DNA from: a virus
Reading direction: 5' to 3' (one strand)
IMG/VR virus record: IMGVR_UViG_3300035670_001126
Span: 1 to 26,016 of that record
Length of the DNA: 26,016 nt
In this document: piece after piece, positions 8,116-26,016 of the stretch
Position numbering within the stretch: position 1 is the stretch's first letter
Layout: each line of letters begins with the position of its first letter
Made by a program: the position numbers and the translations under genes
Notes under the pieces: generated by a model
Databases searched by the model: none
What the model saw: the letters and a program-made list of their open reading frames with translations, nothing else
What the model was told of the DNA's origin: nothing

Positions 8116-8318
8116 TGGCTGAAGAAAAGAAAAAGATTAAAAAAACCCGTATTGCAGCAAGAGCGGGTAAAAATCCAAACGCTTCTGTAGAGACATCTAT
8201 CGATAGCAGCAAGTACCGTGCTGGTGGAGCTAAGTCAAAAGCTAAAAAGGGCGGAGTTATTCGCAAACCAACCGCAAAGATTCGATACAGGAAGACTCAT
8301 GGCGACAAAAAAGACTAG
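8115..8318 (+). CDS. Lys/Arg-rich small protein
   Basis: 67 residues, about one third Lys or Arg (MAEEKKKIKKTRIAARAGK and SKAKKGGVIRKPTAKIRYRK). Its ATG overlaps the upstream stop and its last 20 bases overlap the next gene. It opens a run of very small basic genes. Such proteins could bind nucleic acid, but no fold is recognisable. Confidence 0.65.
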   Translation: MAEEKKKIKKTRIAARAGKNPNASVETSIDSSKYRAGGAKSKAKKGGVIRKPTAKIRYRKTHGDKKD

Positions 8319-8496
8319 CAGTAAGTCAAAGTCCAGGGTAAACGAGGCTGGCAACTACACCAAGCCTGAGATGCGCAAAGCTTTGTTCAAGAAGATTAAA
8401 GCGGGCACCAAGGGCGGTGACCCAGGAGAGTGGTCTGCTCGTAAGGCTCAGCTTCTAGCTTCTGAGTACAAGAAGAAGGGCGGAGGCTACAAGTAA
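8299..8496 (+). CDS. Small basic protein with GEWSARKAQ / GGGYK motif
   Basis: 65 residues from the ATG at 8299; the same frame extends upstream but only with a TTG. Motifs N-E-A-G-N-Y-T-K-P-E-M-R-K, GGDPGEWSARKAQLLA and Y-K-K-K-G-G-G-Y-K form a pattern I have seen in many phage and environmental-virus small proteins. The function is unknown. The strong conservation of W-S-A-R-K suggests a real small domain. It is translated in an overlapping series with its neighbours. Confidence 0.75.
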   Translation: MATKKTSSKSKSRVNEAGNYTKPEMRKALFKKIKAGTKGGDPGEWSARKAQLLASEYKKKGGGYK

Positions 8497-8732
8497 TGGC
8501 CCTCGCTAAGTCCCAGAAGTCCTTAAAGGACTGGACGGACCAGAAGTGGAGAACCTCAGACGGCAAACCGTCTAAGGGCAAAAAGCGTTACCTGCCAGAC
8601 AAAGCTTGGGATGAGCTTACTCCAGCAGAAAAAGCGGCTACAAATAAAGCAAAAGCTAAAGGCAACAAAAAAGGAAAGCAATTTGTAGCACAACCAAAGA
8701 AGATTGCTAAAAAAACAGCAAAGCACAGATAG
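8496..8732 (+). CDS. Small basic protein (DUF5872-like pattern)
   Basis: 78 residues; ATG overlaps the previous stop (TAATG). Motifs in order: SQKSLKDWTDQKWRTSDGKP, RYLPDKAWDELTPAEKAATN and K-G-K-Q-F-V-A-Q-P-K-K-I-A-K-K-T. This order is typical of a widespread small phage and giant-virus family, which I recall as DUF5872; the label is from memory. It has no catalytic motif, is strongly basic, and may bind DNA. Confidence 0.75.
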   Translation: MALAKSQKSLKDWTDQKWRTSDGKPSKGKKRYLPDKAWDELTPAEKAATNKAKAKGNKKGKQFVAQPKKIAKKTAKHR

Positions 8733-8743
8733 AGAGGTTAGAA

Positions 8744-8908
8744 ATGGCATACGGAAAGAAAATGGACTCTAAGGGTTCAAAGTCAATGTCTCCAAAAAAC
8801 AAAGGACTTGCGGCTATGTCTGGTGACAAGAGCAAGATTACCCGTGGCGATGTTATTAAAGCTGCTCAAATGAAAAAGGACACTAACAAGAAAGCGAAGA
8901 AGAAGTAA
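8744..8908 (+). CDS. Small basic protein, 54 residues
   Basis: ATG at 8744 follows AGAGAGGTTAGAA, a clear ribosome-binding site, and the frame runs to TAA at 8906. The product begins MAYGKKMDSKGSKSMSPKNK, continues with S-K-I-T-R-G-D-V-I-K-A-A-Q-M-K-K-D and ends in a Lys-rich tail. The I-T-R-G-D-V-I-K-A-A segment reads as one amphipathic helix. It is immediately followed by the next ATG with no gap. The position, ribosome-binding site and composition match the rest of the cluster; the function is unknown. Confidence 0.7.
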   Translation: MAYGKKMDSKGSKSMSPKNKGLAAMSGDKSKITRGDVIKAAQMKKDTNKKAKKK

Positions 8909-8995
8909 ATGGCAACTTGTAAGTGCGGTTCTTGCGCCTCATGCAAGAAGAAGGCAAAGTCAACTAAGAAAGCAGCAAAGTATGGCCGAAAGTAA
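8909..8995 (+). CDS. Cys-rich microprotein, 28 residues
   Basis: ATG directly abuts the previous stop, and the frame ends at TAA 8993 after overlapping the next ATG by 14 bases. Sequence: MATCKCGSCASCKKK followed by a basic tail ending KKAAKYGRK. The four cysteines (C4-x-C6-x2-C9-x2-C12) look like a minimal zinc or other metal knuckle. A related C-x-C pattern recurs in the 18-residue gene at 9712. No known family comes to mind. The exact fit into the overlap chain supports it being a gene. Confidence 0.6.
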   Translation: MATCKCGSCASCKKKAKSTKKAAKYGRK

Positions 8996-9290
8996 GAAGC
9001 ACCACGGTAAGAAGAAGGACCCACGTCTAGAGCGTGCAGGTGTATCTGGCTACAACAAGCCTAAGGCTACCCCAGGAGCTAAGAAGTCTCACATTGTCGT
9101 TGCTAAAGAAGGCGACAAGATTAAGACTATCCGCTTCGGTGAGCAGGGCGCTGAGACCGCTGGTAAGCCAAAGCCTGGAGAGTCTGAGCGTATGAAGGCT
9201 AAGCGTAAGAGTTTTAAGGCTCGTCACGCTAAAAACATTGCTAAGGGCAAGATGTCTGCAGCATACTGGGCCGACAAGGTTAAGTGGTAG
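8982..9290 (+). CDS. Conserved small basic protein (DUF6321-like pattern)
   Basis: 102 residues, starting inside the previous gene. Motifs DPRLERAGVSGYNKPK, KKSHIVVAKEGDKIKTIRFG and SFKARHAKNIAKGKMSAAYW are hallmarks of a widespread phage family, which I recall as DUF6321. Its function is unknown. It is strongly basic and, being conserved far beyond this phage, is unlikely to be a chance frame. A role on DNA or in packaging would fit the place but is speculation. Confidence 0.82.
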   Translation: MAESKKHHGKKKDPRLERAGVSGYNKPKATPGAKKSHIVVAKEGDKIKTIRFGEQGAETAGKPKPGESERMKAKRKSFKARHAKNIAKGKMSAAYWADKVKW

Positions 9291-9292
9291 TA

Positions 9293-9574
9293 GTGGCTGA
9301 AAAGAAGAAGTTTGGACCATACAAAGGCTCTAAAGCCAATGGTGGTCGACCTATTTACGTCTACAAAGAAAAAGTAAACGGTAAGTGGGTCACAACTTCT
9401 AAGAACAAGGCCCGTGCAGACTACGAAGAGAAGTCTGGGCGCAAGCTTTCTAAAGACACTGATGTAGACCACAAGAACAACAATCACTCAGATGACCGCA
9501 AGTCAAACCTGCGGCCTCTGAAGCACGGTAAAAACACCGCTAAAGAGAATAAGCGGAGAGCAGGAAAGAAGTAA
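9293..9574 (+). CDS. Small HNH-endonuclease-like protein
   Basis: 93 residues from GTG at 9293 (GTG GCT GAA, as at 9789); a GTG at 9284 is an alternative. The N-terminal half is a basic beta part (GRPIYVYKEKVNGKWV). The C-terminal half carries D-V-D-H-K-N-N-N-H-S-D-D-R-K-S-N-L-R-P-L: Asp59-His60, then Asn64/His65 and Asn72 line up with the HNH core in which a D-H pair, a central Asn and a final His/Asn coordinate the metal. No zinc cysteines are present. It may be a nicking or homing-type nuclease, or a derived DNA-binding protein. Confidence 0.7.
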   Translation: MAEKKKFGPYKGSKANGGRPIYVYKEKVNGKWVTTSKNKARADYEEKSGRKLSKDTDVDHKNNNHSDDRKSNLRPLKHGKNTAKENKRRAGKK

Positions 9575-9711
9575 TGGCTAGACCTAAGAAAAAGGTTGAG
9601 GGTCTTGACCCTAAGAAGCCCTCTTATGAGAAAAACCCCATGATGAAGCGTAACCAGAACTTGTCTGACAGAATGAAGAATTCTAGAGGCAAAGTAAAGG
9701 GCAAGAAGTAA
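9574..9711 (+). CDS. Small basic protein, 45 residues
   Basis: ATG at 9574 overlaps the previous stop (TAATG) and the frame ends at TAA 9709. The product starts MARPKKKVEGLDPKKPSYEK, continues through NPMMKRNQNLSDRM and ends in a Lys/Gly tail. It is highly basic like its neighbours and directly followed by the next ATG with no gap. No family is recognised. Confidence 0.65.
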   Translation: MARPKKKVEGLDPKKPSYEKNPMMKRNQNLSDRMKNSRGKVKGKK

Positions 9712-9768
9712 ATGTGTGGTTGCAAAAACTGCGGTTGCGGTAAAAAAGATGATAGGCTACCTAACTAG
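9712..9768 (+). CDS. Cys-rich microprotein, 18 residues
   Basis: ATG directly abuts the previous stop; the frame ends at TAG 9766. The predicted product is MCGCKNCGCGKKDDRLPN, with cysteines at positions 2, 4, 7 and 9. The C-G-C-x-x-C-G-C core resembles a tiny metal-binding knuckle and parallels the 28-residue protein at 8909. The evidence is its place in an unbroken chain of abutting genes and the repeated motif. At this length a chance frame cannot be excluded. Confidence 0.45.
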   Translation: MCGCKNCGCGKKDDRLPN

Positions 9769-9788
9769 AACCCTGACAAGGAGCTAGT

Positions 9789-10184
9789 GTGGCTGAACAG
9801 CATTCCCTCACCAACGTCAATGAAGACACTTTGGTGGGGGATTGTTCTGTTTGCGGCACTTCTGTGCGAGTCCGTAAGAGCTACGCAAAGAAGCCCAATC
9901 AAAAGCAGTACTACCGCTGCTATCACAAATACCTAGTGACTAAAACCCACATTGAAACCCCTTGGAAGTTCCATAAAAAGGAATACTGTGAGACCTGTGG
10001 ATTTCAAGCGGTACATGAGTGCCAACTGACTGTAGACCACATTGACGGTAATCGCTACAACAATGAAATCTCTAACTGGCAGACTCTCTGCCATAACTGC
10101 CACGCCTTAAAGACATTAACACACAAAGACCACTTTACTCGCTATAGTTCACCCCTCCAAGAAGACGAAAGTTCCCTATCCTAG
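9789..10184 (+). CDS. HNH endonuclease with zinc-binding cysteines
   Basis: 131 residues, GTG start with AAGGAG upstream at 9778-9783. Cys19/Cys22 and Cys44/His46 may form a first zinc site. Cys67/Cys70 and Cys101/Cys104 frame the HNH core LTVDHIDGNRYNNEISNW, then LCHNCHALK, in which Asp83-His84, Asn91/Asn92 or Asn96, and His105 are the likely metal and catalytic residues. HNH proteins in phages act in DNA packaging as nicking nucleases or as free-standing homing endonucleases. No intron or group-I core is visible next to it. The second HNH-like gene at 9293 is close by. Confidence 0.88.
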   Translation: MAEQHSLTNVNEDTLVGDCSVCGTSVRVRKSYAKKPNQKQYYRCYHKYLVTKTHIETPWKFHKKEYCETCGFQAVHECQLTVDHIDGNRYNNEISNWQTLCHNCHALKTLTHKDHFTRYSSPLQEDESSLS

Positions 10185-11448: not shown

Positions 11449-12948
11449 ATGGCCTATGGTCGTCCAGGAGTCTACGTAACCGAGACTCTATTGCCTGCGC
11501 CTATTGCCGTTACTGGTACCGCAAACGCTGCTGGTGCTGTTATTGGTGAATTTGCTCAGGGCCCCGAGGATGTGACTCTTGTCACTTCTTGGTATGACTT
11601 CGTAAAGACTTACGGAGGATACAACGCTTCCTACCCAGCAACTTTTGGTGTAGGACTTTACTTCCAAAACGGTGGAAGTGAGCTATACGTCAAGCGTGTT
11701 CTACACTCAGACGCTGTAGCAGCATCCGCCACCATTGCTTCCAGCACCACTGGAAACCTCGGTACTGTAACTTCTAAGAACAAGGGTGTAGACGGTAACA
11801 ACCTCCGTGTTAAGTTCACCCCTACTGGTAACGGAGCTTACTACGACATGGTAGTCACTAAGGAGACCGTATCTGGTACTTCTTCGGACATTAGCAATGA
11901 CGTAACTCTAGAGCGCTTTACCAACCTTTTGTTCAACAACGCATTGTCTAGTGACTTTGGACCTACCGTTGTAAACCTAAGTTCAAAGTACGTTACTCTT
12001 TCTATTACTTCGGGTAACACTCTTGCTCCTACTGCTTCTGTTATCCCGCTTACCAGCGGAGACGATGGAGACCCTGCAGATGAGAACGACTACTCTTTGG
12101 CTCTAGACGACTTTACTGCTGTCGACCGCCCACTAGTAGTGTTCGCTCCTGAAGTTATCCAGAAGCTAACTGCTACCAACGCTGGGCCTGTTTTTGACGC
12201 CATGATTTCATGGGCTGAATCAAACAATGGGTTTGCAATTGTTGACACTGATGATGACTTGTCTGTATCTCAGGCAACTATTTTCGTAGGTGCTCGACAG
12301 AACTCAAGCTACGGAGCTGCTTACTACCCTAACTTCTACATCTCAGACCCTCTGGGAAGAAGCCCACAGTCACTACGCAAGGTGGGTCCAGCAGGCGCAA
12401 TTGCTGGTATCTACATTGCTACTGACAAGCAGGTAGGCCCATTCAAGGCACCAGCTGGTGTTACTGCCACTATTCGTGGAGCTGTCGCTCTAGAAAAGGC
12501 ATTCACCTCTGCAGAGCTTGACTCCCTGAACACTGCCACTACCCCAGTAAACGCAATCCGCAACCTTCCTGGAGCAGGTGTAGTCGTAATGGGTGCTCGC
12601 ACTCTGAAGAATGACGGAACCGCTAACAAGTACGTCAACATGAGACGTTCGTTGATTTACATCAACAAGCGACTCAAGGACCTGACCCAGTTCGCACTGT
12701 TTGAGAACAACAGCGAAGTTCTTTGGGGCCGTATCCGCACCGTTCTGAACGTATTCCTAAACGAATACCGTAACCAGGGTGGTCTGCGAGGAGCTACCCC
12801 AGCCGACTCGTTCTTCGTAAAGTGTGACGCTGAAAACAACCCAGCTGAGAGCATTGCTCTTGGAGAGGTTCACATCGAGGTTGGAGTTGCTCTTGAGTAC
12901 CCAGCTGAGTTCGTGGTCATCAACCTAAGCCAAAAGACTGCTAACTAA
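11449..12948 (+). CDS. Contractile tail sheath protein
   Basis: 499 residues with TTAAGGAGA five bases before ATG. The start M-A-Y-G-R-P-G-V-Y-V-T-E-T is the sheath hallmark, with A-A-G-A-V-I-G-E-F-A-Q-G-P and GVGLYFQNGGSELYVKRV following. The C-terminal core has YVNMRRSLIYINKRLKDLTQ, FENNSEVLWGRIRTVLNVF, L-R-G-A-T-P-A-D-S-F-F-V-K-C and a final E-V-H-I-E-V-G-V-A-L-E-Y-P-A-E-F, all typical of the phage tail sheath C-terminal domain. It polymerises around the tube and contracts on infection. It is followed 17 bases on by the tube gene, the canonical pair. The domain III-type middle region is present. Codon use looks more favoured than in neighbours, as expected for an abundant virion protein. 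Confidence 0.97.
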   Translation: MAYGRPGVYVTETLLPAPIAVTGTANAAGAVIGEFAQGPEDVTLVTSWYDFVKTYGGYNASYPATFGVGLYFQNGGSELYVKRVLHSDAVAASATIASSTTGNLGTVTSKNKGVDGNNLRVKFTPTGNGAYYDMVVTKETVSGTSSDISNDVTLERFTNLLFNNALSSDFGPTVVNLSSKYVTLSITSGNTLAPTASVIPLTSGDDGDPADENDYSLALDDFTAVDRPLVVFAPEVIQKLTATNAGPVFDAMISWAESNNGFAIVDTDDDLSVSQATIFVGARQNSSYGAAYYPNFYISDPLGRSPQSLRKVGPAGAIAGIYIATDKQVGPFKAPAGVTATIRGAVALEKAFTSAELDSLNTATTPVNAIRNLPGAGVVVMGARTLKNDGTANKYVNMRRSLIYINKRLKDLTQFALFENNSEVLWGRIRTVLNVFLNEYRNQGGLRGATPADSFFVKCDAENNPAESIALGEVHIEVGVALEYPAEFVVINLSQKTAN

Positions 12949-12965
12949 AGAAGGAGAAGTACATA

Positions 12966-13580
12966 ATGGCTATCATCAACAACAGGTCTAAGTTGGAGAC
13001 GGACCCGCTAAGAAACTTTAGGTTCTTGGTGACTTTCTCCCCACTAGACAGCGGTGACTTCACTAGCTCCGCAATGACTAACCTAACTAAGGCCACTATG
13101 GGATTCGTCTCTGTATCTGGTCTTTCCGTAACCACCGACAGCATTGCTTACCGTGAAGGTGGCTACAACACCACCGTTCACCAGATGCCTGGTCAGACTA
13201 GCTTCTCGCAGCTTACGCTACAGCGTGGCGTTATGCTGGGAAACCGTCAGGCATGGGACTGGATGAGGATGCTGTTTGCAACCGTTCAGGGTGGAGCTGA
13301 TGTTAGCGCAACTGATAACTTCCGTTGCGAGATTGACATTCAGGTTCTATCTCACCCAGTTGCAAAGGCTGCAGCTTCCTCTGCAAACTCAACCAACACC
13401 GCAGATGAGCACACCGCTATGCGATTCAAGGTCTACAACGCTTGGATTACTTCCTTGGCGTACTCCGACCTAAACGCTGGTGACAATGCTATCTTCGTAG
13501 AGCAGATGACGCTAGTACACGAGGGATTCGACACCTCTTGGGCTACTAACCTAACTACCAACGCACCAGCTCTAAACTAA
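12966..13580 (+). CDS. Tail tube protein, T4 gp19 family
   Basis: 204 residues preceded by AAGGAG. The start RSKLETDPLRNFRFLVTF, a middle S-V-S-G-L-S-V-T-T-D-S-I-A-Y-R-E-G-G, then QMPGQTSFSQLTLQRGVM are the standard marks of T4 gp19/conserved tail-tube proteins (PF06841). The C-terminal half follows the family, with a F-K-V-Y-N-A-W-I-T-S-L strand and Q-M-T-L-V-H-E-G-F near the end. It forms the inner tube inside the sheath encoded just upstream. The length is close to the family norm (about 150-200 residues), with a small insertion near residues 110-160 that contains an Ala/Ser-rich stretch. Confidence 0.95.
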   Translation: MAIINNRSKLETDPLRNFRFLVTFSPLDSGDFTSSAMTNLTKATMGFVSVSGLSVTTDSIAYREGGYNTTVHQMPGQTSFSQLTLQRGVMLGNRQAWDWMRMLFATVQGGADVSATDNFRCEIDIQVLSHPVAKAAASSANSTNTADEHTAMRFKVYNAWITSLAYSDLNAGDNAIFVEQMTLVHEGFDTSWATNLTTNAPALN

Positions 13581-13603
13581 TTAGCTAATCACAGGAGAAC
13601 AAT

Positions 13604-14422
13604 ATGACTACAAAAACAATAAGCGCAGAACAAAACCCAGCACTAGCTAACAAGCTTGCGGCTGAGGCACTGGCACCTGAAAAGGAAACCATTGCCCCAG
13701 CTGCAATCAGCACTCCTTCTTTCAACAACCTAGTGACCCTCCCTGGTGGTTATTTGACAATGACTGGGGAGGTCATTAGGGAAGTTGAGGTTAAGGAGCT
13801 TACTGGAAAAGACGAAGAAGCAATTGCCAGAACTAATGACGCTTCTAAGCTTTTCAATACGATTATTAACCGAGGCACGGTTCGAGTAGGTAAAGAAGAC
13901 GCTGATGAGTCGATTCTTGACCGCCTCTTGGCTGGTGACCGAGATGAGATTGTTATTGGAATCTTTAGAGCTACTTTTGGTAACGAAGTTGACGTCAATG
14001 CTTACTGCTCAGGATGTAACGAGAGCAAGGTCGCAACAGTAGACGTGTCCAAGGACATTAAGTCTAGGGTTCTGCTTGACCCAGTTGAAGACCGAGTGTT
14101 CGTAGTAAAGTCCCGTGGGAATGAGTTCAAGGTGACTCTACCTACAGGAGCAGTCCAGAAAGAACTTCTGAGTTCTTCTGGCAAGAGCATTCCAGAACTA
14201 ACGACCATGCTTCTAGAGCAAACTGTTCTAGAAATTAATGGGCAACCTGTATTCCACGCCCAGCAAGTACGTGACCTAGGACTAGTTGACCGAAGGGCCA
14301 TCAGCAACGCAATTGCTGAAAGAAACCCTGGACCACAGCTTGAAGATGTAATTACGGAATGCCCTGACTGCGGCGGAAAGGTTGTAGTTCCGATTAACCT
14401 CGGGACCTTGTTTCGCTTCTAG
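13604..14422 (+). CDS. Baseplate hub/tail assembly chaperone, T4 gp26-like
   Basis: 272 residues; AGGAG lies seven bases before ATG. The order tube, this gene, tape measure is that of tail assembly chaperones, and the body (VEVKELTGKDEEAIARTNDA, then LLAGDRDEIVIGIFRATFG, and RDLGLVDRRAISNAIAE) resembles the T4_baseplate family (PF12322). Cys135/Cys138 and Cys253/Cys256 form two C-x2-C knuckles that could close one zinc ribbon. After the stop at 14420 an overlapping +1 frame continues to 14582, suggesting a longer frameshifted form of about 325 residues. The start is residue 1 at 13604, since no better start is near. Confidence 0.72.
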   Translation: MTTKTISAEQNPALANKLAAEALAPEKETIAPAAISTPSFNNLVTLPGGYLTMTGEVIREVEVKELTGKDEEAIARTNDASKLFNTIINRGTVRVGKEDADESILDRLLAGDRDEIVIGIFRATFGNEVDVNAYCSGCNESKVATVDVSKDIKSRVLLDPVEDRVFVVKSRGNEFKVTLPTGAVQKELLSSSGKSIPELTTMLLEQTVLEINGQPVFHAQQVRDLGLVDRRAISNAIAERNPGPQLEDVITECPDCGGKVVVPINLGTLFRF

Positions 14423-14582
14423 TTTTATCAGCTACGAAGTGTTACTAAGGGAATGGCTACTAATTTCTACTGCATTTCCTGGATGGACACTTAGTGATAT
14501 CCAAGGATTAAGTCGAAGAGACCGTTTGAACTGGATTGAACTAGCCAGGGAGTACGGTAAGCTAAGGAAGAAAGATGGATGA
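14388..14582 (+). CDS. +1-frame extension of the tail chaperone (candidate programmed frameshift)
   Basis: Relative to the gene at 13604, the +1 frame is open from 14388 to the TGA at 14580 and has no ATG. Its only GTG (14439) lacks a ribosome-binding site. From 14415 it reads ASSFISYEVLLREWLL, then F-P-G-W-T-L-S-D-I-Q-G-L, then SRRDRLNWIELAREYGKLRK: a compact Trp-rich helical domain like the T-part of tail chaperone G/GT pairs. A slip at TTT-C (14411-14414) would let tRNA-Phe re-pair on TTC and give a 325-residue fusion. The TGA overlaps the tape-measure ATG at 14575. A -2 slip would reach the same frame. A separate short gene is less likely. Confidence 0.6.
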   Translation, partial: FRLTSGPCFASSFISYEVLLREWLLISTAFPGWTLSDIQGLSRRDRLNWIELAREYGKLRKKDG

Positions 14583-17004
14583 ACTTAACCAGAGTTTAGA
14601 CCAAGCTACGTCTAAATTCAGCAAGCTAGATAACTTGCTGAAGAGCATGGTTCGTAGCATGAACTCGCTCTCTGCTGGGATGTCAAAGGCCAGCAATAGT
14701 TTGTCATCTGTCGGATTTGGTGGGCAAACAGGTTTAGGTGGAGCGCAAAACCAAGGCGTCATGCAAGGCTCCATGGGAATGTTCTCCACTCCTCAAGCAG
14801 TGGCAGGAATTACTGCTGCCCGAGTAGGGCTTTCCGCAGTTGGAACCGCAGCCAACATGATGCCAGACGTTCAAGCAACGGTTGGAAGGGCATCCGCTTT
14901 CTATGTTGCGGGTCGAATGAGCGGCCAGAATTACCAACAGCTAGGTCTTGCTACCTCCCAAGCAATGCAGGGCGGTATTAGCCAACGAGGGATTACTGGA
15001 GTTGTTGGAGCTCAGTTTGCTACTGCGGGTATCATGGGTGGCTCTCAGCTTTATAACCAAGGACTTGCGTTTACTGCAGGTCAGTTTGGCTCTTTGGGAG
15101 TGGACAACCTAACTGCAGCCAAGTCTTTTATGAATACTTACTCAGGCTCTGGAGCGTCTGCTCTCATGAGGGGCTCGGGTATCATGCTTACCGACCCAAT
15201 GACTGGAAAGCAGCTTGGCACTAGACAACTTTTCCAGCAATTGGAAAGCAGAGTAGTAAATAACCCTAACCTAACCGTTGAGGGGATTAACAGTGCTGTT
15301 CGAAGTGGGTACTTGACTAGCTCTTTGTCTGGGGCAGGTTTGCAAGACGAAGGAATGCAACAAGCGTTTATTCAGTATCTAAGGGATAAAGCACAAGGAA
15401 AGTCCACGGCTTACCTAGAGGGTGACACAAGCGCCATGGGGGATAACCCACTGTCTGCTATTTCTAAAGTAGAAGGCGCTGCTGACCTAGCAATGGATAA
15501 GGCAACTCCTGCGTACCTTAGTGGAATTGAAACAGCTGCTGGAGCGCTGGTTACTCTAAATCAAGCAGCGGGAGATTTGGCCGCCCAGTTTGGTGCTCTT
15601 AAGTCCAGCATCTCTTACTTTACTGGAGACCCTACTGGTGGCGCACTTACAGGTGGGCTTGGCGCAGCTGGAGGAGCTGTTGCTCAGGGCGCTATGGCGT
15701 ATGGTGCAGCAAAGGCCTTTGGAGCGGGAAGAAACCCTGCAAGCAACACTAGGTCAGGACCAGCTGCTAGAGGACCAGGTAAGGTGACTCGGGCTGCTGG
15801 TGGTCGTGGTGGTGGTCTTATTGGTTCTGTTTTAGCGGTGCCAGACCTAATTAACGGAATTAGCACTGGGAACTCTACGGCAATTGGAGGCAGCATTGGC
15901 TCAATTGCAGGAGGTATTCTTGGCGGTGTTGTAGGAAGTGCCTTTGGTCCTGCTGGAACCATTGTCGGTGGTATGTTAGGTTCAATGGCGGGTGACTTTA
16001 TTGGCTCTGCTATTGGAGGGGCTATTGGTGGTGACAGCGGTGCCACTACGACTAGCTCCAACACAAACCAACCAACGGGAAAGTGGCTATCTCACCCCGT
16101 TGACCGACCAAACATAACCGCATACTTTGGACAGAAGTACAGCTCATTTGACCCTTCTAGGCTTGTTTGGCCTGACGGTCACCGAGGCATAGACTATGAG
16201 GCTACTGAAAGCACCACGGTTAAGGCCGCTGCTGACGGTCTTGCTTACTCAAAGAGCAGTGGGGCGCTAGGAAACTACGTGTTGATTGACCACCAAAATG
16301 GTTACTACACTTTCTACTGCCACCTAAGCAGCGTAAACGTAAGTGGACACGTAAAGCGGGGACAGTCCATAGGTAAAGCGGGTAACACAGGCAGTTCGAG
16401 TGGCGGCGTACACCTGCACTTTGCGTTGAGCACATCAGACAGTACTGCTAACGTAATTGACCCAGTTCCTTACCTAGGAGGTGCTCCGTCCTCTACTGGC
16501 ATGACTACTGGTACTAGTGAGGGGGTAGACTCTACTACTGGAGTAGCTACTACGGCCGCTAGTGCTGCTGGAGAAACTTACTGGAGCAACCCTTCAACCC
16601 AGGTAAACATTCAGGGTCTTGCAGGAGCAATGTCTTCTTCTGCTTCTAGCAACGGTGTCGGTGCAACAGGGGTCAACTCAACCTCTTCTTCTGGTTCTCC
16701 TGCCGCTTGGTATGGCCCAAATTCACGAGGGGCTGGAGCTACTGCTGCCCCTGGAGCTGCTACTGGTGTTGACTACGTTCCTCAAGATGGAATTTACCGC
16801 CTGCACCAAGGTGAATCAGTTTTGACTGCTCAAGAAACCGCTGCTCGTCGAGATGGCATGCGTGGCGGAGGAAAAGCGGGAAACAACATCACCATTAACG
16901 TAAACGTAAGCGATTTGTCCGAAGAAGAAGCCGTGAGATTTAGCAGAAGAGTAAAAGACATTCTTGAAAAAGAAACCATTTCTAACGCTGTAGGAAGGAA
17001 GTAG
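14575..17004 (+). CDS. Tape measure protein with M23 metallopeptidase domain
   Basis: 809 residues. The N-terminal helix (NQSLDQATSKFSKLDNLLKS), long Gly/Ala-rich middle, hydrophobic Gly-zipper-like stretch at about 437-487 (SIGSIAGGILGGVVGSAFG) and the tail Y-V-P-Q-D-G-I-Y-R-L-H-Q-G-E-S-V-L-T-A-Q-E are tape-measure features. Residues about 500-640 are an M23/lysostaphin-like peptidase: H536-x3-D540 in G-H-R-G-I-D-Y, a Y-V-L-I-D-H strand, and the H613-L-H615 motif, so all zinc ligands are present. It sets tail length inside the tube and probably cuts peptidoglycan cross-links as the tube enters the wall. The start overlaps the frameshift ORF's stop. Confidence 0.92.
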   Translation: MDELNQSLDQATSKFSKLDNLLKSMVRSMNSLSAGMSKASNSLSSVGFGGQTGLGGAQNQGVMQGSMGMFSTPQAVAGITAARVGLSAVGTAANMMPDVQATVGRASAFYVAGRMSGQNYQQLGLATSQAMQGGISQRGITGVVGAQFATAGIMGGSQLYNQGLAFTAGQFGSLGVDNLTAAKSFMNTYSGSGASALMRGSGIMLTDPMTGKQLGTRQLFQQLESRVVNNPNLTVEGINSAVRSGYLTSSLSGAGLQDEGMQQAFIQYLRDKAQGKSTAYLEGDTSAMGDNPLSAISKVEGAADLAMDKATPAYLSGIETAAGALVTLNQAAGDLAAQFGALKSSISYFTGDPTGGALTGGLGAAGGAVAQGAMAYGAAKAFGAGRNPASNTRSGPAARGPGKVTRAAGGRGGGLIGSVLAVPDLINGISTGNSTAIGGSIGSIAGGILGGVVGSAFGPAGTIVGGMLGSMAGDFIGSAIGGAIGGDSGATTTSSNTNQPTGKWLSHPVDRPNITAYFGQKYSSFDPSRLVWPDGHRGIDYEATESTTVKAAADGLAYSKSSGALGNYVLIDHQNGYYTFYCHLSSVNVSGHVKRGQSIGKAGNTGSSSGGVHLHFALSTSDSTANVIDPVPYLGGAPSSTGMTTGTSEGVDSTTGVATTAASAAGETYWSNPSTQVNIQGLAGAMSSSASSNGVGATGVNSTSSSGSPAAWYGPNSRGAGATAAPGAATGVDYVPQDGIYRLHQGESVLTAQETAARRDGMRGGGKAGNNITINVNVSDLSEEEAVRFSRRVKDILEKETISNAVGRK

Positions 17005-17007
17005 TAA

Positions 17008-18270
17008 ATGGATGCATCCGACCTAAGAGGGCGTACCGCTACTTCTACAGAGGTATACGACAAGTGGTACAAGGGCTACATCAAAGATTTAAACGCAGGA
17101 AAGTTTAATGTAAATAAAGAAGCAAAGAACACTGCTCTTGAACAGGGCTGGACAGCTGCGCAACAAGATGTAGACATTTGGTACGCAAGACTACAGGCAA
17201 TCATTAAGACGGGCGCTACTGGGTGGCCTACGAAGTACTTTAATCCAACCCAAGCACCACCTGCTCCTACTCCACCTTTTGGAACAAAGCTGTTTACAAA
17301 GGCCGAAGTAGAGTTCAATTTAAACGTGGCTAAAAAGGTCAGAGATAAAGCATGGGATGCGCTAGAAAAGTCTCCAGAAACCTTTGACCGACAAGACCAA
17401 AGGCTACAAAACGTTGCTGCCACAAAAGTTGTAACCACGTCTCCAAGAACCCCTACGAAATACAACGTTCCCTCTGTCAGAGAGGCGTACCACGCTTCAA
17501 GCGCTGCTTTCTTAGAGTCTTACGAGGACGATGGCATCAATGCTCCTGCTCAAGTAAAGCAGGCAATTGACTTGTGGACAACTTATGCTAAAAACGGTAA
17601 CAGCAAGGGAATGATTCAATCTTTAAACTGGCTACCTTCGACTGTGGCTGAGCAGGTTGTCCCTAAAGAACTCTTTGGAGGAAGACCCCTGTATGGAATC
17701 CAAGGGTTCCAGTTTCTCTACAACCCTAACCGAATTGACATGAGCTTTAATGGGGTCCAGGGTATTGACGTTGCTGCGGCAATTCAAGACTCACAAAACT
17801 TCAACCTTCTTGGAACTAGCGATGCTCCAAGCACTGTTAGTTTTTCAATTCTCATTAACCGAATGCTGGACATGAAGTACCTAAGCACTCAGGGAATGAG
17901 AGACAAGTTTAAAATCGAAAACGTTTATGGAAACAACTTCAAAGTAAATAACGTTGATTTAACGCAAATTTATCAGAAGGGAACAATGTATGACGTTGAG
18001 TTTTTGCTTGGCACTCTAACTGGGTTCCAAATGCCAAATCCAATTACTGGAAGGTACAGCACTGACGTAGGGTTCATCGGAGCTCGCCCTGTGGAGTTGC
18101 ACTTAGGACCTAATCTTAGATACATAGTACGAATTGACAGCTTTAGCCTTTCTCACAAGGCGTTTAACCGAAGAATGGTGCCAATCTACACTGAACTGGA
18201 ACTCACCTGTGGTCGACTACCTTGGGGATATAACAAGTCAACTACGACTCTACCTGGCAGTGTTTCTTAA
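17008..18270 (+). CDS. Baseplate hub/tube-associated protein
   Basis: 420 residues, starting three bases after the tape-measure stop. The N-terminal 170 residues are helical and charged (ALEQGWTAAQQDVDIWYARL), with a Pro-rich patch Q-A-P-P-A-P-T-P-P-F. From about residue 228 a beta domain begins (YGIQGFQFLYNPNRIDMSFN), continues with FSILINRMLDMKYLS and ends R-Y-I-V-R-I-D-S-F-S-L-S-H-K-A-F-N-R-R-M-V-P. This second half resembles tube-initiating or hub adaptor proteins that sit between tape measure and baseplate, comparable in place to T4 gp48/gp54. The assignment is from context and pattern. Confidence 0.6.
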   Translation: MDASDLRGRTATSTEVYDKWYKGYIKDLNAGKFNVNKEAKNTALEQGWTAAQQDVDIWYARLQAIIKTGATGWPTKYFNPTQAPPAPTPPFGTKLFTKAEVEFNLNVAKKVRDKAWDALEKSPETFDRQDQRLQNVAATKVVTTSPRTPTKYNVPSVREAYHASSAAFLESYEDDGINAPAQVKQAIDLWTTYAKNGNSKGMIQSLNWLPSTVAEQVVPKELFGGRPLYGIQGFQFLYNPNRIDMSFNGVQGIDVAAAIQDSQNFNLLGTSDAPSTVSFSILINRMLDMKYLSTQGMRDKFKIENVYGNNFKVNNVDLTQIYQKGTMYDVEFLLGTLTGFQMPNPITGRYSTDVGFIGARPVELHLGPNLRYIVRIDSFSLSHKAFNRRMVPIYTELELTCGRLPWGYNKSTTTLPGSVS

Positions 18271-18285
18271 AGACTGGAGAAGCAA

Positions 18286-18564
18286 ATGATTTATGCAGAT
18301 AGTAGATACGCCTCTGGCAACGTATACAGAGCGCAAAACCCTAAGACTGGGCAGTTTGTCATCTCAGTTGACCGAGTGTTTGAAGAATCTTCCGTGGAGT
18401 TCTTTACTTACGTCTGGGTAGAACGAGACCGTCCAGATTTGATTGCTTCCAAGTTTTTAAACGACCCAAACAAGTGGTGGTTAATTATGGACTATAACCC
18501 AGAAGTTATCGACGGTATGTCAATTCCTGTAGGAACGTCTATAAGGATACCGAATGTCAGATAA
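18286..18564 (+). CDS. LysM-like / gp53-type baseplate protein
   Basis: 92 residues. The C-terminal part, R-D-R-P-D-L-I-A-S-K-F-L, then N-K-W-W-L-I-M-D-Y-N-P, then M-S-I-P-V-G-T-S-I-R-I-P, follows the LysM pattern (helix, N-P loop, P-x-G-x-x-I-x-I-P strand) that also occurs in T4 gp53 and in Afp7-type hub proteins of contractile systems. The N-terminal half is beta-rich. In contractile baseplates this protein usually clamps the hub-tube junction rather than binding peptidoglycan. The ribosome-binding site is TGGAGAAGC. It overlaps the next gene by 11 bases. Confidence 0.78.
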   Translation: MIYADSRYASGNVYRAQNPKTGQFVISVDRVFEESSVEFFTYVWVERDRPDLIASKFLNDPNKWWLIMDYNPEVIDGMSIPVGTSIRIPNVR

Positions 18565-19825
18565 CAACGGCCAGTATCGGTATGGGACTAAGTATTCAGT
18601 AGAGTTCCCTTTACTGCCTTCTCTAACTCACCCTGCTCGTAAGGCATACTTACAGCAAACCCAGGGCCAGCACGACATTTTGACGTTAGAGTTCTCTGTT
18701 ACCAGCTCTCTTTGGGCCAAGCTACTCGCTACTGGAGTACCCGTCAGGTTTAAGTGGGAAACGGGAAAATACAAAGGAGAGTGGCTGGGTTATGTCCATT
18801 CAGTAAAACAGAACTGGGCCAAGGCAACTCAAAATGTTATGGAAGTAGTTTGCCTAGGAAGCACTTTTCCATTAAAAAACAGTAACAGCGAAGTATTTAA
18901 AAACGTCAGTATTCCTCAGGCTGTAGAAAAAATTGCTAAAAAATTTGGCTACAAGTTTGTGACCAAATCTCACCCCCTTCGTTTTTCTACTCTAACTATG
19001 GTGGGAGACGTTTCTTACTGGGAATGGATTCAGCAACTAGCAGTGGCAATTGGGTACGGGGTAGTAGTAAACGGCACTGAACTTCAATTCTTACCGTTAG
19101 ATGACTTGATTAATAGAGGTTCTTACAGTGCCCCTGTGCTAAGTGCCGAGTCAAAAATGCTACCGACAAATGTTGGATTTATTGACAAAAAACTAGACCA
19201 CATAGAAATTGTCAGTGGCGATTACCTAGAGGGCGGGTTTGGGCAACCTCGTACTAACAAACTTATGGGTGGGGTAGACGCTCTTACTGGACGAGTGTTT
19301 TCTAAAAAGGGTGTTCCATCCGAAGTGGGGCGAAATGTACGTAACTCAGTTACAGACGTTATCTTTGATGAAGTAGTAGCGAGCGCTGTAGTGGATACCC
19401 CTAAAATGGCTACAGAGCTGTCTAAAGGAGCAGCGCAAGCAGCCCGACTTACTCTTCCAGCAAAAATTAGATGTCAGGGTGACCCAAGAATTAAACCTTT
19501 TTCTCCTATCTACATCGAAGGAAGCGGAGAAGAGACTGACGGGTTTTGGGTTGTAACTAAAGCTGTTCACATGTTTTCTTTAATTGGGGAATATCAAATG
19601 GAAGTGTCTGCTCTTACTGACGGAAAGGGTCCTAACAAGGAAGCCCCTTTTAGAAAAGCGACTGGGTCTGCGGTTGGAATGATAGACTTAGAAAGCGCTT
19701 TAAATAAGCAGAATGTGCAAAGTAACACTCTGTCTGGAAAAACAGTTCTTGATGTAAAAGTCCCAATTGTTAAGCAGACTGGACAGGGATTTAATAAGAC
19801 TCCTGCTAGATGGAAGGCAACGTAA
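18554..19825 (+). CDS. Baseplate hub protein, gpD/gp27/VgrG-N-like
   Basis: 423 residues. After an N-terminal strand (YGTKYSVEFPLLPSLTHPAR) comes a hub-like part: H-D-I-L-T-L-E-F-S-V, a P-V-R-F-K-W-E-T-G loop, WLGYVHSVKQNWAK and a helix-strand portion ending in S-I-P-Q-A-V-E-K-I-A-K-K-F-G-Y, then YWEWIQQLAVAIGYGVVV. This combination of a G-Y-V-H-S-V-K strand with the I-P-Q-A-V-E-K-I-A helix is typical of late-control-gene-D and T4 gp27 hubs. It would form the trimeric hub that carries the spike. It lacks the OB and needle parts, which the protein at 22081 supplies separately. Confidence 0.8.
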   Translation: MSDNNGQYRYGTKYSVEFPLLPSLTHPARKAYLQQTQGQHDILTLEFSVTSSLWAKLLATGVPVRFKWETGKYKGEWLGYVHSVKQNWAKATQNVMEVVCLGSTFPLKNSNSEVFKNVSIPQAVEKIAKKFGYKFVTKSHPLRFSTLTMVGDVSYWEWIQQLAVAIGYGVVVNGTELQFLPLDDLINRGSYSAPVLSAESKMLPTNVGFIDKKLDHIEIVSGDYLEGGFGQPRTNKLMGGVDALTGRVFSKKGVPSEVGRNVRNSVTDVIFDEVVASAVVDTPKMATELSKGAAQAARLTLPAKIRCQGDPRIKPFSPIYIEGSGEETDGFWVVTKAVHMFSLIGEYQMEVSALTDGKGPNKEAPFRKATGSAVGMIDLESALNKQNVQSNTLSGKTVLDVKVPIVKQTGQGFNKTPARWKAT

Positions 19826-20247
19826 TGCCACAGACATACAACTCTCCTAAAGAGGTCACTGTAGCCCTACCATTCAGCGTTGACTCTTACGGAAACATAG
19901 CCACTGCAAGCACTCCAGAGAAAATCTGGGCTGCCCGTGTCTACTCCACTCTTACGACTGCTTTGGGAGAAAGGGTGTTTCTTCCTAGCTTTGGAACTCG
20001 ACTAGCAGAGTATGTCCTAGATACAACCTCGGTTGCTTCTGAAGGAATCTCTTCTGAAATTAGAAACGCCTTTAATTCTTTTCTTTCTGACTTGGAAATC
20101 TTGACTCTGGATTCCTACCTAAATGAGTCTGACAAGGTTTTTTACGTCGAACTAACTTACAAGCTACCTAATCAAAATGAGGCCAGTACCATTGTCGGAG
20201 TAACCACCCTGACAGCAAATGGCTTGGCTATTGAGGAACTACGATGA
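19825..20247 (+). CDS. Baseplate wedge protein, gp25/GPW-like
   Basis: 140 residues from the ATG at 19825, which overlaps the previous stop (TAATG); an upstream ATG at 19810 would add five residues and seems less likely. Key parts: VALPFSVDSYGNIATASTPE, then A-R-V-Y-S-T-L-T-T-A-L-G-E-R-V-F-L-P-S-F-G-T-R-L, then the helix of E-I-R-N-A-F-N-S-F and a last F-Y-V-E-L-T-Y strand. G-E-R-V-F-L-P-S-F-G-T is the gp25 hallmark. It links baseplate wedges to the sheath and starts sheath assembly. The Baseplate_J gene follows with an ATGA overlap, the usual order. Confidence 0.9.
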   Translation: MPQTYNSPKEVTVALPFSVDSYGNIATASTPEKIWAARVYSTLTTALGERVFLPSFGTRLAEYVLDTTSVASEGISSEIRNAFNSFLSDLEILTLDSYLNESDKVFYVELTYKLPNQNEASTIVGVTTLTANGLAIEELR

Positions 20248-22079
20248 CCGCTAATGTGAACCCTATTCCAGTTGCTATTGACTACACCAGTCGTGACTAC
20301 TACTCACTGCGTGAGGACCTAATTGCCCGAGTCAAAGCACGTGTTCCAAACTGGACAGGAACAGACGAAGCTGACTTTGGCGTAGCTTTTGTTGAAGCCA
20401 TGGCTTACATGGGCGACATTATGAGCTACTACATTGACAGGGTGGCTAACGAAGGGAACATCCTTACTGCAACTCAAAGGCAGTCCATACTTGAGCTTGC
20501 TGCTAGTTACGGGTACACTCCTTCTGGATTTGTTTCTGCTACATGTGACCTAACGTTTACCAACTCAAGCACGTCTCCCATAACTATCCCTGCAAACACT
20601 CAATTTTCTGTTGAGATACAGTACCGAGACATTGTTCAAGATATTGTTTTTGCTTTGAACTCTCAGACGGTAGTTCCTGCTAGTGGCTCGATTGTAGCAA
20701 CTGCTAGGCATGCCGAGCTGGTTCATGCACGAAGTGAAAACGCAGCTGACGAGCTAGTGGTCAATGACATAGCAGGAGAACTTGTCGGAGTTTCGACTGG
20801 TCTACCTGGACAAGAGTTTGTTCTTTCTGAAAACCAAGTTGTAGATGGTTCTGTAAAGGTGTTCATTAGAAATGGCAACGAGTATGACCAGTGGGACCAA
20901 GTAATTCACCTAACTGACTTTGGTCCAACAGATTCAGTGTACAGTCTAAGATTTGACGCTAATAACTACGTCTATGTCATGTTTGGAGATGGAGTCTCTG
21001 GCTCTATCCCTGGCGCTGGTTCATACATAAAAGTTCAGTACGAAGCAGGTGGAGGAACTGCAGGAAACATTTCTGACAATTTCTTGTTTTATTTTTTCCA
21101 AGACGCCCCTGGTGTTACCAGCACAATTGACTGGACAGACCTGACTATTCAAAACGCAGTAGCTACTGGTGGAATTGACCCAGAAACTGATGAAAACATT
21201 CGGGCTTTAGCCCCACTAGCGCTTTCTGCTATGAATAGAGTGGTTACTCTAGAGGACTTTGAGAATTACGCACTGTCTCTTCCTCTAGTTGGAAAAGCGG
21301 ACGCTACTGCGGCGTCTCGTTCGTCAGTAACGCTGTATGTAGCTCCGTACAGAGATGACAGGTCCACAGACCTGTACCCTGGATACAACACAACGAACAC
21401 TGTTGTAGGACAGGAACTGCTAAACATCATAACTAGCGTTAAGGACAACTTGTCTGACAAGCTTCAAATCGGAACAAGCCTGACGGTATCTCCTCCAACG
21501 TATGTCCCTGTTTCTCTAGAGATTGGCTACATTAAACGGCCTCAGTTCACTCACGAGCAAGTGCTAGAAAAACTAAAGTTGTCACTTCTTTCAGTGTTTG
21601 GGTACAACTACATGACTTTTGGGGACACTTTACGTCCAGAAGAAGTGGAGTTTGAACTAAGAAAAGTTGATGGAGTGCTTTCTGTAAAGGTCATCTCTTT
21701 ATACAGAAGCAGCTTAACTGCATCTCGTAACACTCTAATAGGTGCAAGTGGTGAAATCTTTGTATTCAATGAAGACGACTTGATTGTGCACCCTGACCCA
21801 GCTCTTTCAGCAATCACACTTCCTACTCCTTACGTTGTTTCGCCTGTATTTGAAAGCACCACTTTTGAGTACACAGTAGAAGCGGCTACAGGAAACCTTG
21901 ATGTGACCTTAGGGCTGTTTGACTCTGCGTCTACAGTTACTGTAAATGGCACATCTCAGTCTGTAGTTAGCGGAGAGGTTGACTTTACCGCAACAGTGCC
22001 TGGTTCTTCGGAGATTGAAGTAACTAGCGCTGACGGTACCACATCTACTGTCTACACCATTACTTTTAGCGCTGAGTGA
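20244..22079 (+). CDS. Baseplate J/gp6-like wedge protein with C-terminal cadherin-like domain
   Basis: 611 residues. The start (AIDYTSRDYYSLREDLIARV) and D-E-A-D-F-G-V-A-F-V-E-A-M-A-Y-M-G-D are typical of gp6/Baseplate_J wedge proteins. The middle has a V-Y-S-L-R-F-D-A-N-N-Y and F-G-D-G-V-S-G strand pair and A-T-G-G-I-D-P-E-T-D-E-N-I-R, the latter a strong Baseplate_J mark. Residues about 517-611 are added: L-S-A-I-T-L-P, Y-V-V-S-P-V-F-E-S-T-T-F-E-Y-T-V and a closing Y-T-I-T-F-S, the pattern of a cadherin-like beta-sandwich (PF12733). This extra domain may be exposed on the baseplate rim and bind glycans, but that is inference. Confidence 0.88.
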   Translation: MTANVNPIPVAIDYTSRDYYSLREDLIARVKARVPNWTGTDEADFGVAFVEAMAYMGDIMSYYIDRVANEGNILTATQRQSILELAASYGYTPSGFVSATCDLTFTNSSTSPITIPANTQFSVEIQYRDIVQDIVFALNSQTVVPASGSIVATARHAELVHARSENAADELVVNDIAGELVGVSTGLPGQEFVLSENQVVDGSVKVFIRNGNEYDQWDQVIHLTDFGPTDSVYSLRFDANNYVYVMFGDGVSGSIPGAGSYIKVQYEAGGGTAGNISDNFLFYFFQDAPGVTSTIDWTDLTIQNAVATGGIDPETDENIRALAPLALSAMNRVVTLEDFENYALSLPLVGKADATAASRSSVTLYVAPYRDDRSTDLYPGYNTTNTVVGQELLNIITSVKDNLSDKLQIGTSLTVSPPTYVPVSLEIGYIKRPQFTHEQVLEKLKLSLLSVFGYNYMTFGDTLRPEEVEFELRKVDGVLSVKVISLYRSSLTASRNTLIGASGEIFVFNEDDLIVHPDPALSAITLPTPYVVSPVFESTTFEYTVEAATGNLDVTLGLFDSASTVTVNGTSQSVVSGEVDFTATVPGSSEIEVTSADGTTSTVYTITFSAE

Positions 22080-22080
22080 T

Positions 22081-22533
22081 ATGTCTGACGTATCTATTGC
22101 TCCTGGTGTCTACAGGGGGGTCGTTGCAGATAACAGGGACCCCCTAAATAAAAACAGACTAAAGCTAAAAGTCCCTCAATTGCTACAAAACCATGTAACA
22201 GACTGGGCATGGCCTATTGAGACGTTTACCATTTCAACAAGCTTGCCAAAGCCAGGGCAAATGGTTTGGGTCATGTTTGAGGGTGGTAACCCTATGTGGC
22301 CAGTGTGGGCGGGTACGTTTAGCCTTACAACGGGCAACACTGGTGACTACATGTTTAATGCTATTTCAAACATTGCCGCATTGAACACTTTGTCAGCCTA
22401 CTTAAAAACCACCACAGCCCCAGACGGGGTCAGGAGCATTGACATGCTTGCCACTCTGACAGCTATGGCCACAGCCCTTAAAAACCACGAGCAACGAATT
22501 ACCGCCGAAGAGAACAAGCCAGACTTGACGTAG
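22081..22533 (+). CDS. Baseplate spike OB-fold protein, gp5-like
   Basis: 150 residues, starting one base after the wedge gene's stop. The opening A-P-G-V-Y-R-G-V-V-A-D-N-R-D-P-L, then N-R-L-K-L-K-V-P-Q-L, W-A-W-P and G-Q-M-V-W-V-M-F-E-G-G-N-P, ending P-V-W-A-G-T-F, is the Gp5/VgrG OB pattern. The rest is a short helix (LATLTAMATALKNHEQRI). No lysozyme domain and no repeated beta-helix are encoded, unlike T4 gp5. It would bind the hub and form a short spike base, with tip and cell-wall cutting supplied elsewhere. Confidence 0.8.
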   Translation: MSDVSIAPGVYRGVVADNRDPLNKNRLKLKVPQLLQNHVTDWAWPIETFTISTSLPKPGQMVWVMFEGGNPMWPVWAGTFSLTTGNTGDYMFNAISNIAALNTLSAYLKTTTAPDGVRSIDMLATLTAMATALKNHEQRITAEENKPDLT

Positions 22534-25620: not shown

Positions 25621-26016
25621 ATGTGTACCGCTGCTGAAAAGTTCTTTACCCCGCTGTCTGCGTCTGAGTATCGTCTGCTCGATGTGCTTTGTACGCTATC
25701 TGAAGGTGGGGTTGTCGAGGCCTCGATGGAAGAACTGGCTAGGTACGCACAGTGCTCTGAGGAGTCTATCCGCCGTGCGCTTCGGGGCCTAGAAGCTGCT
25801 GAACTAATCGCAACTACCCGCACAAAGCGTAACTTGGGAAAGCTCCACAAGAACGTTTACGAGCTGATTTCACCATCCCACAAAAATGTGGATGAGAAAG
25901 CTGTCATCCACAAAAATGTGGACGAGGTCATCCACAAAAATGTGGGGTCAACAGCTAGTAGTAATAGTAGTAATGACTTAGTAATAAATAGAGATAAGAC
26001 TACGTCTTATCTCTTG
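25621..26016 (+). CDS. Winged-helix DNA-binding protein, probable replication initiator or regulator (3' end outside window)
   Basis: 132 residues visible; the frame runs off the window. Residues 12-70 (PLSASEYRLLDVLCTLSEGG, then SMEELARYAQCSEESIRRAL) form a helix-turn-helix with winged-helix pattern (A-S-M-E-E-L-A, C-S-E-E-S-I-R-R-A-L-R-G-L-E-A-A-E-L-I). After it H-K-N-V occurs four times, and the DNA coding the last three copies is palindromic. The remaining part is Ser/Asn/Thr-rich and AT-rich in DNA. A wHTH gene with internal iterons resembles phage initiators such as lambda O, but a self-regulating repressor is also possible. Its ATG lies directly behind a strong promoter. Confidence 0.65.
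   Translation, partial: MCTAAEKFFTPLSASEYRLLDVLCTLSEGGVVEASMEELARYAQCSEESIRRALRGLEAAELIATTRTKRNLGKLHKNVYELISPSHKNVDEKAVIHKNVDEVIHKNVGSTASSNSSNDLVINRDKTTSYLL
25878..25945. repeat. Three palindromic iterons, CCACAAAAATGTGG
   Basis: Exact copies of CCACA-AAAA-TGTGG sit at 25878-25891, 25908-25921 and 25932-25945, starting 30 and 24 bases apart and in frame with H-K-N-V codons. A degenerate fourth site may lie near 25838. Flanks extend some arms to ATCCACA and TGTGGAT. Sites TCATCCACA (25904, 25928 and, on the other strand, 25887-25895) and TCGTCCACA (other strand, 25917-25925) differ by one base from DnaA boxes TTATCCACA/TTGTCCACA. They may bind the encoded protein or DnaA. Confidence 0.75.
25956..25973. 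repeat. AT-rich tandem 9-base repeat TAGTAGTAA x2
   Basis: Two exact adjacent copies of TAGTAGTAA lie directly 3' of the iterons, in a stretch (25951-25990) that is strongly A/T-rich. Such a tract beside iterons is what a DNA-unwinding element looks like, although the coding frame also passes through it (S-S-N-S-S-N). Confidence 0.55.
25990..26014. other. Perfect 11-bp inverted repeat with 3-base loop
   Basis: AGAGATAAGAC (25990-26000), loop TAC, then GTCTTATCTCT (26004-26014). All 11 pairs match. The frame of the winged-helix gene stays open across it, and no T-run is visible before the window ends, so a terminator cannot be claimed. Its position next to the AT-rich repeat suggests a role in replication start or autoregulation, or a protein-binding site. 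Confidence 0.7.

Follow-up and report, generated by a model that had tools for sequence, protein, structure and literature searches.

A probable theta-type replication origin with a covarying hairpin inside a phage initiator gene

The stretch of DNA analyzed here (the window) is an entire IMG/VR record (G000, 26,016 bases) and represents a tailed-phage fragment, with sheath and baseplate genes within positions 11449-22533. The tail genes run directly into an initiator gene, and the gene sizes resemble those of two relatives, L049 and L104. In L049, the initiator gene is followed by genes for a DnaC-like AAA+/IstB-type loader, two small genes, and genes for DnaB, a DnaG-type primase, an SNF2 helicase and a family-A polymerase (PolA). 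In the window, the winged-helix domain of the initiator is followed by three short repeats (iterons), a TCAACAGC box, an AT-rich stretch and a hairpin, HP1 (Table 1). All of these lie inside one open frame, as the original prediction had stated for the repeats and the hairpin, and this frame runs off the contig. At the left end of the window, positions 3-1253 encode Laminin-G-like and Mtd N-terminal domains, which suggests receptor-binding or host-range variable proteins, and positions 8001-10000 show a strong + strand AT skew (0.37, 0.27) that is not seen in the remaining window.

Table 1. Positions of the initiator gene and of the features within it (window coordinates)
Feature	Position	Strand	Remarks
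Initiator gene, 5' part	25621..26016	+	132 aa, open at contig end
Winged-helix DNA-binding domain, residues 1-82	25621..25866	+	AlphaFold2 model of relative L049
Fourth HKNV codon block, CCACAAGAACGTTT	25845..25858	+	No palindrome; internal codon control
Iteron 1	25878..25891	+	CCACA-AAAA-TGTGG
Iteron 2	25908..25921	+	Arms extend to 9 nt, 89% complementary: TCATCCACA/TGTGGACGA
Iteron 3	25932..25945	+	
TCAACAGC box	25948..25955	+	Directly after last iteron
AT-rich stretch with TAG/TAA trinucleotide run	25956..25989	+	Probable unwinding element
HP1, 11-bp stem	25990..26014	.	Loop TAC on top strand, GTA on bottom; conserved core ACTWCGT

The window gene encodes the N-terminal half, containing the winged helix, of a replication initiator; complete relatives have about 290-402 aa. 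Its 132 residues matched PHROG families of replication initiation, O-like and DnaD-like loader proteins (E 7e-9 to 1e-4). The AlphaFold2 model of L049 showed two confident domains, a winged helix (residues 1-82) and a helical domain (158-327), and between them a disordered linker (87-155) that coincides with the origin-coding stretch. Fold matches of the winged helix included 4pql, 4pt7 and 5kbj (Z 9-10.6), which we take to be staphylococcal RepA, and other winged helices gave equal scores; the 4pql match (Z 10.6 across 82 residues) was itself tied with unrelated winged helices. Profile searches of the initiator gave no RepA_N sequence match, and the lambda O family was not among its Pfam matches. 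Matches to O-like PHROGs fell mainly in the winged-helix region, the best of them at E 1e-6 to 4e-10. For the C-terminal domain taken by itself (mean pLDDT 83), no convincing fold match was obtained (best Z 5.4; lambda P, 9oa1, 4.8), which is not to be read as evidence for a new fold.

Relatives were collected through the DNA and through the protein. A first scan for viral contigs with two CCACANNNNTGTGG sites yielded 39 loci. Homologous proteins were encoded at 14 of these, and a profile (A1) built from them gave 64 loci with no requirement for repeats. The earliest relatives were thus found via the iteron arms, and the 65-locus set (64 profile loci and the window; 39 representatives below 93% identity) via the protein. 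These relatives share ancestry, and counts across members are not counts of independent events. The exact window protein as query had no match in GenBank phages and viral contigs, and no relatives of the initiator were found in GenBank phages and GTDB genomes. A structural search of a viral structure library gave one uncharacterised relative at 42% identity, labeled 'uncultured Caudovirales phage'. By DnaB and sheath, the closest cultivated phages are myophages of Streptomyces, Gordonia and Brevibacterium; an actinobacterial host is likely, judged solely from these nearest cultivated phages. HP1 was absent from the 15-kb regions read in the nearest cultivated myophages (BRock, ChisanaKitsune and Cantare).

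The sequence CCACAAAAATGTGG occurs exactly three times in the window, and is its sole 14-mer with three copies within 200 bp. The original prediction described three exact palindromes here. They are not exact palindromes, the reverse complement being CCACATTTTTGTGG; each copy is an interrupted palindrome, with 5-bp arms and a 4-nt spacer. The copies encode HKNV peptides, as had been claimed. In synonymous shuffles, in which the protein was fixed and codons were redrawn from family usage, three identical iteron copies arose with P = 0.00035 and all three arm sets in 0 of 20,000. HKNV occurs a fourth time inside the winged-helix domain, where it is encoded by CAC AAG AAC GTT; these codons differ from those of the iteron HKNVs, as expected where the DNA is not under selection.

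Gene-internal repeats were present at the same place in related phages. In 19 of 36 testable relatives found through the protein, the interval from the winged helix to the hairpin contained two to four interrupted palindromes whose arms were identical, versus 0-5% per member in synonymous shuffles; the other 17 were without two perfect identical-arm repeats, and no recognisable iteron was found in L086, L095, L089 and L099. Members of the CCACA group differ in the peptide (HKNV, HKAV, HKPV, HNPV, HSLV, HRVV) and the DNA arms remain constant. This is the opposite of palindrome loss with HKNV kept, which the original prediction had named as a refuting result. Iterons of other groups read TTTCA-4-TGAAA, GTTTC-6-GAAAC, GCCTC-6-GAGGC, CCCTC-6-GAGGG and GCCAA-6-TTGGC. 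Arm class is associated with the recognition helix: a helix start of S[EST]ES.RR pairs with CCACA arms (SAES in L083), [SG]RTT.[WFY]R pairs with TTTCA/GTTTC arms, and [SG]RE pairs with the GCC types. As a pattern in sequence, this association is as direct recognition by the encoded protein would predict.

Similar repeats were seen elsewhere. The CCCTC-6-GAGGG iterons of L092, 320 and 352 nt into the initiator gene, have nearly the lambda iteron arms, although this phage otherwise shows no close relationship to lambda. Two unrelated initiators (L016:8937-8973, identical to L004, and L037:2946-3003) have perfect CCACAAATTTGTGG palindromes after the winged helix, encoding HKFV, apparently convergent with the window iterons.

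The original prediction of an AT-rich 9-base tandem repeat was confirmed, two copies of TAGTAGTAA being located at 25956-25973. The 60-nt region ending at 25989 had an AT content of 0.68, versus 0.58 in synonymous shuffles (P 0.006), and the run of six TAG/TAA trinucleotides was obtained in 0 of 500 shuffles. From the TCAACAGC box to HP1, synonymous codons are shifted toward AT relative to those outside this linker (Asn AAT 0.83 versus 0.31, Ser AGT 0.43 versus 0.09, Ile ATA 0.55 versus 0.13), and in most members the AT content of this interval is above that of synonymous shuffles. The stretch is a probable unwinding element. TCAACAG was present in most of the 39 representatives, including the non-coding spacer of two relatives in which the initiator gene is split.

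The predicted perfect 11-bp hairpin, AGAGATAAGAC-TAC-GTCTTATCTCT, was found as described, and is the only hairpin of the window with a 3-nt loop and a stem of at least 8 bp. An 11-bp hairpin with a 3-nt loop arose somewhere in 3 of 200 mononucleotide shuffles of the window, and the 11-bp stem of HP1 was obtained in 0 of 2,000 synonymous shuffles. HP1 was detected in 59 of 65 loci, as 27 distinct sequences with stems of 8-14 bp, a loop of TAC or TTC, and an invariant ACTWCGT core; it was absent from five divergent members (L074, L076, L077, L088, L100). Against synonymous shuffles, it was significant in each of 31 members (P ≤ 0.003). HP1 cells were paired in 98.1% of cases, versus 73.8% when shuffled, and two-sided changes occurred at 8 of 10 pairs. 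The covariation score was 0.621 versus 0.148, and every slid partner register failed. Among the 27 distinct hairpins, the inner pairs 1-8 often change, yet include no G-T or A-C. The search pattern fixed CT.CG; an unrestricted scan (54 HP1 versus 4 others at ≥9 bp) indicated that little was hidden by this. Six contigs of 76-95 kb each contain a single HP1, and no second hairpin with the HP1 loop was found in 807 kb of loci. Three of the six contigs have 123-127-nt end repeats. In these three genomes, GC and AT skew was not consistently placed at HP1, and neither supports nor refutes an origin.

The window stops before a second hairpin, HP2, and the C-terminal half of the gene. HP2 is usually G+C-rich, lies a few bases after HP1 (35 distinct cases listed) and varies in loop length. 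It exceeded synonymous expectation (P ≤ 0.05) in only 17 of 30 members, and is therefore a weaker claim than HP1. In two relatives (L089:5023-5874 and L099:9959-10788), the first frame stops after the winged helix. A spacer of roughly 100 non-coding bases keeps the TCAACAGC box, HP1 (14 bp) and HP2, after which a Shine-Dalgarno sequence and ATG open a separate C-terminal half. The split genes separate, by natural means, the coding from the DNA function, and the retention of HP1 in non-coding DNA argues that it is kept for a nucleic-acid function. An internal in-frame Shine-Dalgarno sequence and start codon (ATG, GTG or TTG, within about 105 nt after HP1, e.g. in L104, L065 and L085) follow the hairpins in 27 of 30 members, versus 0.022 per 105 nt elsewhere in the gene. 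Because of these starts in most relatives, the C-terminal domain is probably also made alone as a shorter product, and the intact gene resembles a fusion of two cistrons with an origin at the junction.

The internal repeats, the covarying hairpin and its retention in non-coding DNA, the position of the gene at the head of a DnaC/DnaB/DnaG module and the predicted disordered linker independently support the original prediction of an origin within an initiator gene. With anatomy, conservation, covariation, synteny and the split-gene natural experiment all observed, the block is very likely a phage theta-type replication origin inside its initiator gene. It would be tolerated there because the stretch encodes a disordered linker. 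A single sequence oddity thereby becomes a family with a defined, testable origin, in which iteron specificity changes with a short recognition-helix stretch, the melting tract is synonymously selected, and a hairpin with strict pairing is held in coding DNA. The compact block could serve as a vector origin in the likely actinobacterial hosts.

The block belongs to the internal-origin type of lambda O and RepA_N. As in ori-lambda, it lies in the middle of the initiator gene, and interrupted-palindrome iterons (annotated in lambda as the ATCCCTCAAAACGAGGGA type) are followed by an AT-rich tract. In lambda, however, no perfect 3-nt-loop hairpin of at least 6 bp was present in the region scanned, whereas a tandem hairpin follows the AT-rich stretch here; the neighbor is a DnaC-like AAA+ loader (L049) rather than a lambda-P-type one, and similarity to the O initiator is at weak profile level only. 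The RepA_N initiator structures 4pql, 4pt7 and 5kbj were among the best winged-helix matches, although there was no RepA_N match at sequence level and the C-terminal domain here is not recognisably DnaD-like. According to the excerpted account of pSK41 (PMC5703833), four Rep boxes lie centrally inside rep and are bound by the N-terminal winged helix, the ori encodes a linker, and the C-terminal domain is separate. As far as that account goes, RepA_N plasmids share with this family initiator-binding boxes inside the gene (binding here being predicted) and an origin that encodes the linker, while covarying hairpins like HP1 and HP2 are not described in the excerpts. We found no description of HP1 in open-licence papers.

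The course of events, from binding of the protein and melting to loading of the helicase, and the function of HP1 are inferred as follows. The winged-helix domain would bind the gene-internal iterons, and binding would strain and open the adjacent AT-rich stretch. The DnaB-like helicase would then be positioned by the C-terminal domain together with the neighboring DnaC-like loader, and synthesis would be started by the DnaG-like primase of the phage. Initiator binding, opening of the AT tract and entry of loader and helicase are modeled here on lambda O and pSK41 RepA. HP1 (then HP2 in relatives) would come into play when the DNA has become single-stranded; most probably the bottom strand then folds into a signal for landing or priming. 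HP1 sits where single-stranded DNA would appear, and the bottom strand would be the leading-strand template for a rightward fork, with the HP1 loop there reading C-G[AT]A-G (a C-GNA-G triloop). Mini-hairpins of the d(GCGAAGC) type have been described as extraordinarily stable (PMC10527192). Priming or loading is our preferred role for HP1 because of this position and the bottom-strand triloop. The chance that HP1 acts as single-stranded DNA nevertheless falls a little short of even, the remainder being divided between protein binding to the duplex and an RNA role. A precedent is RSF1010, in which the ssiA/ssiB origin hairpins are read as folded single strands by primase (PMC4434180). A hairpin at the origin is common to both systems, and in the family here it is conserved at a fixed position. 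RSF1010 uses the archaeo-eukaryotic-type primase RepB', whereas a DnaG-like primase is encoded here; a primase role for HP1 is putative, drawn only from its loop and position.

The same features could be explained in other ways. The hairpins might be structures in the initiator mRNA that control the internal start of the C-terminal domain or attenuate transcription, with the iterons as separate elements. HP1 and HP2 lie directly upstream of the conserved Shine-Dalgarno sequence and start in 27 of the 30 members, and they fold well as single strands. We nevertheless consider this explanation unlikely: RNA helices usually tolerate G-U, but no G-T occurs in HP1 pairs 1-8; the invariant loop is a GNA triloop on the non-coding strand only; and in some alphaproteobacterial plasmids C[TWC]G hairpins stand beyond the rep gene, after repeats. 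In the sequences displayed, the hairpins are not followed by a T-run, so they are unlikely to be terminators. An RNA role and an origin role would also be compatible. Still less probable is a reading of the palindromes and the hairpin as operators, or as partition/incompatibility sites, that the encoded protein binds for self-repression or copy-number control. Winged-helix proteins do bind palindromes, the recognition-helix residues track the arms, and the encoded protein has TrmB/MarR/CRP-like profile matches. However, the sites are found about 260 nt after the start of the coding sequence and not at a promoter, operators are not marked by hairpins or by an AT-rich stretch under selection, and the gene heads a DnaC/DnaB/DnaG module.

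The original prediction also invoked host DnaA. Three TCATCCACA 9-mers (25887-, 25904+, 25928+) are one base from TTATCCACA as claimed, but they consist merely of an iteron arm and its flank. The TAG/TAA run, which is long also in L065, L071 and L085, resembles DnaA-trio sequences. Against an origin driven by DnaA through these boxes and the trio-like run, most relatives read CATCCCACA, in which the match to a DnaA box covers CCACA only, and the other arm classes are dissimilar; long trinucleotide runs occur in few of 31 members; and one-mismatch boxes in the window numbered 18, versus 20.5 expected. The flank not being conserved among relatives, DnaA boxes were rejected as a conserved feature, and we regard this mechanism as very improbable. 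Since the 9-mers are only iteron arm and flank, and boxes are not enriched, the feature rests on the iterons, the AT-rich stretch and the hairpin. The remaining explanation, that the repeats reflect a protein-level HKNV repeat or chance, could draw on the further HKNV inside the winged-helix domain. Its probability is close to negligible given the synonymous shuffles of the iterons (P 0.00035 for identical copies, 0/20,000 for all arms), the arms retained in relatives without HKNV, and the survival of the hairpin in non-coding DNA.

HP1-like hairpins were also examined outside the initiator relatives. A genome search with one HP1 sequence, AAGAATACTWCGTATTCTT, gave 29 matches, including probable chance matches or other repeats (Lachnospiraceae and others). 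Only a sphingomonad group, with matches downstream of a RepA gene (RPA-type, 'replication initiator protein A'), was taken further, and additional plasmids were then picked by RepA homology alone. The hairpins read AGAATCC[TAC]GGATTCT in Novosphingobium, AGAATTAC[TAC]GTAATTCT in Rhodopseudomonas, AGAATCC[TTC]GGATTCT in M. ciceri and AGAAATCC[TTC]GGATTTCT in Bradyrhizobium. A C[TWC]G hairpin was present in four of five close RepA plasmids and in none of nine others examined. As in the phage family, repeats are followed by a C[TWC]G hairpin with the same loop orientation relative to rep; the plasmids differ in their unrelated initiator, in an origin beyond rep, in DnaA-box-like sites in some, and in having the hairpin in the closest subgroup only. 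In four such plasmids (L264, L265, L266, L267), it stands about 130-150 bp after repA, is flanked by CTAAC motifs and preceded by three repeats of CTCGTGCTATCAGGAACCG type, and looks like an undescribed part of RepA plasmid origins.

HP1-like hairpins also accompany two unrelated phage initiators, at L167:4416(+) and L149:1494 (reverse-complemented locus), encoding the peptides INTTYLY and KNTTYSS. HP1 as a general part of O-like initiators was rejected, a C[TWC]G hairpin of at least 8 bp being found in 0 of 53 prophage initiator loci (phrog_678, phrog_270). Because of its absence from these loci and from ten other RepA plasmids, HP1 is not universal; it is either a moving module or a repeated invention. 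We tentatively suggest, as a possibility that we hold well below even, that HP1 is a portable, undescribed origin part of unrelated replicons (the initiator family here, alphaproteobacterial RepA plasmids, and the single loci L149 and L167). It would be strand-oriented, with a bottom loop of C-GNA-G, and placed after iterons and an AT tract; the machinery for priming or helicase loading would recognise it in single-stranded form. Such a shared signal, if HP1 is one, would reveal how the step from an opened duplex to priming or to the loading of a helicase is made in unrelated phages and plasmids. A further HP1-like hairpin, at L188:566(+), lies in a 58-aa ORF of doubtful coding status, adjoined by TTGTCC/GGACAA repeats.

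Other palindromes were noted in the course of these searches. Paired TTTTCCACAACCCTGTGGAAAA-type palindromes, 32 bp apart, occur in short ORFs or intergenic DNA of L012, L013, L015, L036 and L038. Phage contigs L026, L039 and L040 contain clusters of repeated TTATCCACA-4-TGTGGATAA, which consists of two inverted consensus DnaA boxes with a 4-nt spacer. Brevibacterium phage Cantare (L135) has four palindromes of the form ATACATAG-NNN-CTATGTAT, at 2305, 3944, 4857 and 9277, which are mostly intergenic and probably represent an operator or regulatory repeat.
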